Part shown: positions 60,412 through 62,915 of the stretch, piece by piece
How positions within the stretch are numbered: the stretch's first letter is position 1
Layout of the letters: each line of letters opens with the position of its first letter
Origin: an uncultured Thiodictyon sp.
GTDB taxonomy: Bacteria > Pseudomonadota > Gammaproteobacteria > Chromatiales > Chromatiaceae
Assembly: GCF_903946935.1 (NCBI RefSeq)
Contig: NZ_CAJAXH010000120.1
Location: forward strand, 1 to 64,000
DNA: 64,000 nt
Direction: 5' to 3'
Notes under the pieces: model-generated
Database searches by the model: none
The model's input: only the letters and a program-made list of their open reading frames with translations
What the model was told of the DNA's origin: nothing
Made by a program: the position numbers and the translations under genes

Positions 60412-60441
60412 TTGACACACCCCGGTAAGAGACCATATCGT
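60412..60441 (+). promoter_or_regulatory. Promoter of the cobalamin-riboswitch transcript
   Basis: TTGACA (60412-60417), 18-base spacer, TATCGT (60436-60441). Its start site would lie at the beginning of the riboswitch. Confidence 0.55.
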
Positions 60442-60449
60442 AAAAAAGT

Positions 60450-60625
60450 CATCGGTTCCCCTGCGGCCAAACGCCGGCTGGGGATGAAAAGGGAACATGG
60501 TTCAAGACCATGGCTGCCCCCGCAACTGTACGCAGCGAGTCGCACCCGAAATCACCACTGGCCACCGAACGGGGCTGGGAAGGTGGGTGTCGATGCCGAC
60601 CTGCAAGCCAGGAAACCTGCCGATG
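60450..60625 (+). ncRNA. Adenosylcobalamin riboswitch
   Basis: Conserved elements appear in order: GGGAACATGGT and CTGCCCCCGCAACTGTA in the core, GCCACTGG-like and GGGAAGG segments, and the B12 box AGCCAGGAAACCTGCC at 60606-60621. The ends CATCGG and CCGATG can pair as P1. It controls the cobalt-transport genes just downstream. Confidence 0.92.
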
Positions 60626-60786
60626 TCCTGTGTCGATCAGTCAATCCGGGCGGGGTGTTCCGGTGGCGAGATTCAAGTTTTCCGCTTGCCTGGAGCGCCC
60701 AGGGCCGGCTTGTCGCTGGTCTGCCTGGGTGTTTCGGGGTCTCTCCCCAGAACGATCCGCCCCTTCACCCTGGGGAGATCGTTGTT

Positions 60787-61011
60787 ATGCATATCATGGA
60801 GGGGTTCCTACCCCCGCTCCACGCCGCCGCTTGGGGCCTTGCGTCCCTGCCCTTTCTGGTGATGGGCGCGCGCCGGATCGCCCGGATCACCCGGGAGCAG
60901 CCGCGGACCAAGCTGCTCCTGGCAAGTGCCGGCGCCTTCACCCAGGTCCCTTTGGCCATCATTGAGGGGCTGCTCACCGTGGTGGTGGTCAACCTGCTGA
61001 TCCAAATATAG
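60787..61011 (+). pseudogene. cbiM: cbiM remnant: cobalt ECF transporter S component with internal deletion and 3' frameshift
   Basis: ATG 60787 (GGGGAG upstream) gives 74 aa, while CbiM is normally about 210-250. The N terminus is intact (MHIMEGFLPPLHAAAW, with the cobalt-ligand His2). After LLLASAGAF it jumps to TQVPLAIIEGLLTVVVVN, the last helix of the family, so about 140-170 central residues are gone. At the 3' end an extra A in ATCCAAATATAG shifts the frame: reading past it gives YSRDDLDDLAFAPGVVR and a stop at 61058-61060, overlapping cbiN as ATGA. Two independent lesions indicate decay. Confidence 0.8.
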
Positions 61012-61056
61012 CCGCGACGACCTCGACGACCTGGCCTTCGCCCCGGGGGTGGTGCG

Positions 61057-61422
61057 ATGAGCCGCGTCAACTTGTGGTTATTGGCGGCGGTCCTGGCCAT
61101 CGCGGTCTTGCCCCTGGTCCTGCCGGTGCCCCAGGGTATCGCGGAGCCCTTCACCGGGGCCGATGATCAGGCCGCAGCGGCGATCAGCGCGTCCAGGCCG
61201 GATTACCGCCCCTGGTTCGCCCCCCTGTGGGAGCCGCCGAGCGGTGAGATCGAGAGCCTGCTATTCGCCCTGCAAGCGGCCCTGGGCGCTGGCCTGCTCG
61301 GCTATTACCTCGGGCAGCGGCGCGGCCAGTCGCAGCGGCGCAGCGCGGGAGCAGAGGCGCCCCAGCTCGACCCGCAAGCACAATTGCCAGGCGCGCAGGA
61401 AGTCCAGGTTCGTCCCAGGTAG
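61057..61422 (+). CDS. cbiN: Cobalt ECF transporter component CbiN
   Basis: The 121 aa comprise TM1 (LWLLAAVLAIAVLPLVLPV), the periplasmic stretch FTGADDQAAAAI and YRPWFAPLWEPPSGEIESLLFALQ, and TM2 (AALGAGLLGYYLG). The domain ends near residue 92; the tail (RRGQSQRRSAGAEAPQ...) is longer than usual. cbiQ and cbiO, which should follow, are absent. With cbiM broken, this subunit probably has no working transporter. Under control of the upstream riboswitch. Confidence 0.85.
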   Translation: MSRVNLWLLAAVLAIAVLPLVLPVPQGIAEPFTGADDQAAAAISASRPDYRPWFAPLWEPPSGEIESLLFALQAALGAGLLGYYLGQRRGQSQRRSAGAEAPQLDPQAQLPGAQEVQVRPR

Positions 61423-61685
61423 GGCGCGATCCCCGTGGCCGCGATCCGATACCCGGCGTCCGCCAGTTCATTGCTGGTCGGCGTCACCTTGAGGGTGCCG
61501 GGCACCCAGAGGTCCACGCTGATTGCCCTGGGCATCCGGCCGACCAGGGGGGCCGCCGGACGAGGCTGTTGAGTGGTTCAACGGATGCGACCGACCGGCC
61601 ATGGATTGCGCTGGATGCCGCGCACCCCACGTTAGGGTCACGGGTTATTTCATCCGCTGTCCAGACTCAGGCCCGAAGACTGCCT

Positions 61686-62915
61686 ATGCTGCCGAAACTC
61701 CTACCTCTCGCGATCATGGCCCTCGGAGTCGGCGGCTTCCTGGTCCTGAAGGCCACCGGTCCGCGGCCGACACCGGCGGTGCCGCAAGAGCGCGTCTGGC
61801 GGATCGATACGATGACCGTGAGCCCGGGGCTACACAGTCCGGAACTGCGCCTGTTTGGGCGGGTGGAGGCGCCGGACCGGATCCGTGCGGCGGCCCCGGT
61901 GGCGGGGCGACTGCTGGAGGTCAAGGTGCGCGACGGTGAGCTCGCGGCACCGGGTGCGCTGCTGGCCCGGCTGGACCCGGCCGACCTGGAGCCGCGGCTC
62001 GCCCAAGCGCGGGCAGATCTGACGCGGGAACGGCTCAAGCTCACGCACGACACGCAAGCGATCGAGCAGGAGCGGGCCCTGCTGGCGCTCGCGCGGGCGG
62101 CCCTGGGGCGGGCGGACAAGGTCCAGTCCCAAAAACTGGGCACGGCCTCCGAGGTCGACCAGGCGCGCGAGCAGCTCGCGCGGGCGCAGCTTGCGGTCAC
62201 CCTGCGCGAGCAGGCGATTGCCGAGCACCCGGCGCGGCTGGCAGCGCTCGAGGCGAAGCTTAAGGAGGCCGAGCGCGACGCCGACCGCGCCGAGATCCGC
62301 GCGCCCTTCGCGGCGCGCATCGGCCGGGTCGAGGCCGGCGCGGGCGATCAGCTGCAGGCCAATCAGACGATCCTCACCCTCTTTCCGGTCGACGGGCTCT
62401 ACCTGCGGGCCAAGGTCCCCGGCGACCGGGGCGAGGAGCTGCGCGCGGCGCTGGCGACCGGCCACCGCCTGAGCGCCCAGGTCAACCACGCGGGCCGGAC
62501 CTTCACGGCGACCCTGGAGCGGCTGGCGGGCGAGGCCGACGCCCGCGGGGTGGACGCACTGCTCAAGGTGGATGGCGATGCCAACCTGCCGGTGGGGGCC
62601 TTCGTCGACCTGGTGCTCCAGCGCCCCGCCATGCCGGACACCATCGCCCTGCCCTTTGCCGCGCTGAACGGCGGGGAGCGGGTCTTTGTGCTGAACGCGG
62701 GCCGGCTCAAGGGGATCGCGATCGAGCGGGTCGGCGAGCTCACGCAGGACGGGGTGAGCGAGGTGCTGGTGCGGGCGCCCGGGCTCACGGCCGGGACCCG
62801 CGTGATGGTCACCCATCTGCCGAATGCGGTGGACGGGCTCAAGGTGCAGGAGGTCTCGGCGCGCACGACGGCCGCCGCCCAAGACGCTGGCGCCCGCCCG
62901 GAGCGGGCCAGATGA
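61686..62915 (+). CDS. RND efflux periplasmic adaptor (membrane fusion protein)
   Basis: The 409 aa begin with an N-terminal membrane anchor or leader (LPLAIMALGVGGFLVL). A lipoyl/barrel-sandwich domain (AAPVAGRLLEVKVRDGEL), a long coiled-coil hairpin (about 105-200), the second lipoyl half (RAEIRAPFAARIGRVEAGAGDQL) and a beta-barrel complete the HlyD-type fold. It links the inner-membrane RND pump to an outer-membrane channel. ATG 61686 fits the signal. The stop overlaps the permease start as ATGA. Substrate unknown. Confidence 0.88.
   Translation: MLPKLLPLAIMALGVGGFLVLKATGPRPTPAVPQERVWRIDTMTVSPGLHSPELRLFGRVEAPDRIRAAAPVAGRLLEVKVRDGELAAPGALLARLDPADLEPRLAQARADLTRERLKLTHDTQAIEQERALLALARAALGRADKVQSQKLGTASEVDQAREQLARAQLAVTLREQAIAEHPARLAALEAKLKEAERDADRAEIRAPFAARIGRVEAGAGDQLQANQTILTLFPVDGLYLRAKVPGDRGEELRAALATGHRLSAQVNHAGRTFTATLERLAGEADARGVDALLKVDGDANLPVGAFVDLVLQRPAMPDTIALPFAALNGGERVFVLNAGRLKGIAIERVGELTQDGVSEVLVRAPGLTAGTRVMVTHLPNAVDGLKVQEVSARTTAAAQDAGARPERAR

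Follow-up and report, generated by a model that had tools for sequence, protein, structure and literature searches.

The DNA analysed here, referred to as the window, spans bases 1-64,000 of the 71,925-base contig C120 in the 6.0 Mb draft genome of a purple sulfur bacterium of the genus Thiodictyon (G000), an assembly of 321 contigs. A cobalamin (B12) riboswitch, a broken cbiM and an open cbiN follow one another on its forward strand. The original prediction placed this locus at 60450-61060; the locus is real, but those coordinates start 14 bases into the riboswitch and exclude almost the whole of cbiN. The riboswitch aptamer (60436-60638) is complete, as had been predicted, since its match to RF00174 spans the whole model (positions 1-189), with a score of 125.4 bits against a gathering score of 31.5 and an E value of 4e–31. 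The aptamer core is 91% identical to those of congeners, which are 95% identical among themselves. By inspection, P1 contains one compensated pair (C-G to U-A) and has lost two outer pairs.

A sigma-70-like promoter (TTGACA-18-TATCGT, 60412-60441, forward strand) was predicted 5′ of the riboswitch by a consensus scan (10/12). One promoter-like site was found where 0.2 would be expected, although a predicted site of this kind says nothing of activity. The 148 bases between aptamer and cbiM (60639-60786) form the leader, or expression platform, and are 82–87% identical to those of congeners. This leader holds an SD-like CTGGGGAGA and an upstream complementary TCTCCCCAG, together with AACGATC/GATCGTT. 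Its sequence and folding suggest a candidate SD-sequestering pairing; the folding barely beats that of shuffled sequences (z about –1.1).

The cbiM gene (ATG at 60787, stop at 61011, forward strand), delimited by alignment and profile searches, has 74 codons. The orthologous loci in four congeners (G002, G004, G006 and G007) show 85–88% DNA identity and carry an intact cbiM of 223 aa, which ends in APGVVR and has a TGA overlapping the cbiN ATG (GTGCGATGA). It is apparent from the alignment with these four that the window gene consists of the first 51 codons and 23 codons from the 3′ end, joined by an in-frame deletion of exactly 399 bp, or 133 codons (GAF/TQV), and followed by an early stop. 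This is the missing middle that had been predicted from a jump from ASAGAF to TQVPLAIIEG. The junction, GGCGCCTTC/ACCCAGGTC, lies at 60936-60943. No clean long repeat was seen there in the junction alignment; the ends of the deletion share a short similarity, GGCGCCTTCGCC and GTCTTCGCC-like, with a few bases of microhomology, which would allow a slippage deletion.

The deletion removes residues 52-184, approximately, and with them the invariant GSCSHPTG, whose His aligns with a His of the NikM structures 4M58 and 4M5B that we take to be a metal ligand. An intact CbiM encoded elsewhere in G000 (contig C216, see below) matches the CbiM structure 5X3X along almost its whole length; the relic does so at its two ends only. 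The N-terminal Met-His-Ile-Met-Glu-Gly is kept (MHIMEGFLPP). In profile searches, the best stretch matching Pfam CbiM (PF01891) covered profile positions 1-47 only, and this N-terminal part passed the weaker Pfam cut-off; the TIGR00123 score was 65.2 bits, against an equivalog cut-off of 184.15. Both the central part and the metal-site His of a functional CbiM are absent from the relic.

A second lesion, a one-base insertion, lies near the 3′ end of cbiM. Where the orthologues read ATCC-AATTCAG or ATCC-AGTACAG, the window reads ATCCAAATATAG, and the frame that follows the extra base in ATCC(A)A reaches a TAG about 46 bp 5′ of cbiN. Comparison with the orthologues thus bears out the extra A that had been proposed here, with the qualification that the region also shows ordinary substitutions. 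The ATGA overlap with cbiN, likewise predicted to have been lost, is kept in the orthologues; in the window the cbiN ATG remains and cbiM ends short of it.

The cbiN gene (61057-61422, forward strand) is open and encodes 121 aa. It covers the whole of both profiles, with scores of 97.5 bits for PF02553 (cut-off 25) and 122.2 bits for TIGR01165 (cut-off 104.85), and it aligns with its orthologues except in the C-terminal tail, where about the last 13 residues have been replaced and lack homology to congeners. A break is situated inside the 3′ end of cbiN. It is followed, at the place expected for cbiQO, by a 91-bp piece (61420-61510) that marks a rearrangement breakpoint: sequence matches put its relatives in G002 and G003 on the contigs that carry the cbi locus, at a distance of 5–7 kb from it. 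Next comes the upstream region of an RND efflux operon (61521-61690), which is 85–87% identical to sequences located over 200 kb away in G007 and on another contig in G004. In G004, a porin and a nickel-type gene directly follow cbiMN, so that the RND operon of the window separates cbiMN from these two genes. No remnant of cbiQ or cbiO was found by tblastn 3′ of the window cbiN, in agreement with the prediction that both were gone, and the locus lacks two genes of a complete CbiMNQO operon. Only two CbiQ proteins are encoded in G000, one on C216 and one in a nickel-type locus.

Contig C216 carries a complete riboswitch-cbiM-cbiN-cbiQ-cbiO array, designated type A, which is divergent from cobM-cbiX; the possibility of an intact cbiMNQO elsewhere in the genome, raised with the original prediction, was thereby realized. 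The other of these two loci (C120:66648-71114) starts about 2.6 kb beyond the window end, extends to about 7 kb, and comprises a porin, a CbiM/NikM-like fusion (about 4 kb beyond the window end), CbiQ, CbiO and a NikR-like gene; it looks like an intact nickel-type ECF system. With both systems present in G000, cobalt uptake need not rely on the broken locus. In G005, a second riboswitch precedes cobM (C408:18435-18656), divergent from the cbiM riboswitch; no match to a riboswitch was found before cobM in G000, where the interval is only about 138 bp (C216:63864-64002).

The distribution of the window form, designated type B, was determined by using the locus DNA as a query against eight Thiodictyon genomes. 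The rpoB tree of these genomes, ((G003,(G002,G006)),((G000,G005),(G001,(G007,G004)))), has good support at every fork and places G000 and G005 as sisters. Type B is complete in G002 and G006. In G004 and G007, cbiMN stands at the locus with cbiM intact, and cbiQ is reduced to about 44 and 11 codons, respectively. The importer of these two species is split, with riboswitch-cbiMN in one place and cbiQO as the last genes of a cobalamin-synthesis operon in another (C313 and C848 in G004; C3, about 209200-211170, and C1:4575736-4577070 in G007). In G007, ‘Candidatus Thiodictyon syntrophicum’, the cbiQO pair resides on plasmid NZ_CP020372 (contig C3). G003 (C203; reverse complement of L038, 4912-6190) has kept cbiN and cbiO, with cbiQ internally deleted to 18+27 codons; riboswitch and cbiM are gone from the locus, and a cobalt-type CbiM was found nowhere in that genome. 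G005 has only type A besides a nickel-type gene, type B not being found, and the only CbiM of G001 is of the nickel type. Breakpoints vary from genome to genome, and the type-B reductions thus look independent. The 74-aa form of CbiM, whose occurrence in relatives bears on the original prediction, was present in no relative searched, all orthologues being full length. Among 26 genomes sampled from other genera of the family (G008-G033), none contained CbiN.

Phylogenetic analyses separate the two copies in G000. The riboswitch-cbiM-cbiN of the window is nearest to those of G002, G006, G007 and G004, and belongs to the form found in most of the genus; the C216 copy groups with that of G005. A nearest-relative relationship of the window and C216 copies was rejected (AU P about 4e–84), and the CbiQ and CbiO trees likewise split type A (C216 and G005) from type B. 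Alternative positions of the window copy inside type B gave AU P values of 0.27–0.51. DNA differences between the types are about 17% for cbiM and 21% for cbiN, as against 12% across the deepest fork in type B. Within codons 29-42 (window 60870-60915), the relic cbiM resembles the C216 type at four amino acid sites (RRI.RIT..PRTK). No gene-conversion tract from the C216 copy was detected at synonymous sites in the relic; the type-A-like residues may be ancestral states or the product of partial gene conversion.

Selection on the genes that remain was estimated by branch. For cbiN, dN and dS were 0.105 and 0.337 on the window branch and 0.046 and 0.303 on the G002 branch, so that dN is about twice as high on the former with dS similar; since the 95% intervals of dN overlap, relaxed constraint on the window cbiN is suggested, short of proof. 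The frame of the relic cbiM is mostly conserved (branch dN 0.041, dS 0.144). These values, and the conservation of the aptamer, fit a fairly recent loss of the locus.

Taken together, these data make it very probable that the window locus is a redundant, pseudogenized copy of a cobalt ECF importer (CbiMNQO) under riboswitch control, undergoing ordinary gene decay. The original prediction of a cobalt-uptake locus caught in decay is upheld by the full-length orthologues, the absence of the 74-aa form from relatives and the intact copy on C216. The present analysis adds that the decaying copy is redundant, that the genus contains two lineages of the importer, and that cbiQO has also left the locus in G004 and G007. 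With a complete type A present in the G000-G005 lineage, type B would have become dispensable, the redundancy lifting selection. A rearrangement just inside the 3′ end of cbiN would have taken cbiQO from the locus, a 399-bp deletion would have removed the central part of cbiM, and its C-terminus would have been lost to a one-base insertion; no order of these events is implied. The riboswitch and promoter would persist simply as nothing has removed them so far. According to a review, cobalt transport requires at least CbiM and CbiN (PMC7689651); the loss of cbiQO alone may therefore have been tolerable, but that of the metal site is not. If the locus is transcribed, its RNA could still sense B12, but the products would be a CbiM devoid of its metal site and a CbiN lacking its partner. 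The open cbiN, the mostly conserved relic frame and the well-kept riboswitch core weigh against decay.

The source of the spare copy bears on how that decay came about, and type A may have been acquired horizontally or be an old paralogue. It is quite possible, if somewhat short of probable, that type A is an ancient paralogue that only G000 and G005 have retained, in which case the window copy decays through late resolution of an old duplication. In the CbiM tree, both types fall into a single Thiodictyon group (87/98) with respect to the sampled outgroups, and the closest CbiM outside the genus is 73% identical, as such a duplication would have it; the CbiQ and CbiO trees, however, do not clearly join A with B, and searches of the six other Thiodictyon genomes yielded no type A. 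An ancient paralogue would change where the spare copy came from and leave the reading of decay as it is.

A different fate for the locus, namely that selection preserves the short CbiM together with CbiN as a minimal pair of membrane proteins under B12 control, with a new function such as tuning or assembling with the type-A transporter, resembles the less favoured suggestion of the original prediction and is very unlikely. In its favour, there is no damage to the riboswitch, the promoter-like site, the SD or either start codon, the cbiN frame is open and the branch dN/dS of the relic cbiM is below 1, but the last of these would be expected anyway if the lesion is recent. Most of CbiM has gone, with the metal-site His and the C-terminus, and the form recurs in no relative. 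It is more doubtful still that the riboswitch has been re-used to control the RND efflux operon (about 61687 onward). The operon is on the same strand, about 265 bp beyond cbiN, and no convincing terminator was found between them; its upstream region, however, is conserved in G007 and G004, where it is located elsewhere, and in G007 no riboswitch lies nearby, which argues that the operon brings its own leader. Errors of sequencing or assembly in an intact cbiM are scarcely credible, even in a draft of 321 contigs, because the 399-bp loss is in frame with few bases of microhomology, its flanks are both type B and the assembly has no second type-B copy with which to confuse it, while the insertion site carries ordinary substitutions and cbiQO is missing too, beyond a breakpoint in cbiN.

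The interpretation of the locus as a decaying, redundant importer may be set beside known systems. The order riboswitch-cbiM-cbiN, the presence of PF01891 and PF02553 and the DNA identity to the intact loci all liken it to CbiMNQO transporters under cobalamin riboswitches, from which it differs in the internal deletion and truncation of cbiM and the missing cbiQO. Minimal CbiMN modules also stand without an adjacent cbiQO, but a CbiM without its metal-binding part cannot be such a module; G004 and G007 are a better fit, yet carry cbiQO elsewhere. A third parallel is with resident operons that decay after a divergent equivalent has displaced them: the old copy is broken, the genome also contains a divergent and complete copy, and the sister species G005 has the second copy only. 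The difference is that the second copy here may be an old paralogue. Literature searches on CbiMN, Thiodictyon cobalamin and riboswitch pseudogenes brought up no title on this case.

Nothing in this case changes how CbiMNQO/riboswitch systems are understood to work. It does serve as a warning to annotators that a good riboswitch match does not imply a working gene downstream. It also provides a clear case of decay in a regulated transporter operon whose riboswitch has stayed intact, with a second, divergent and complete operon elsewhere in the genome, and the related species show other stages of type-B reduction.
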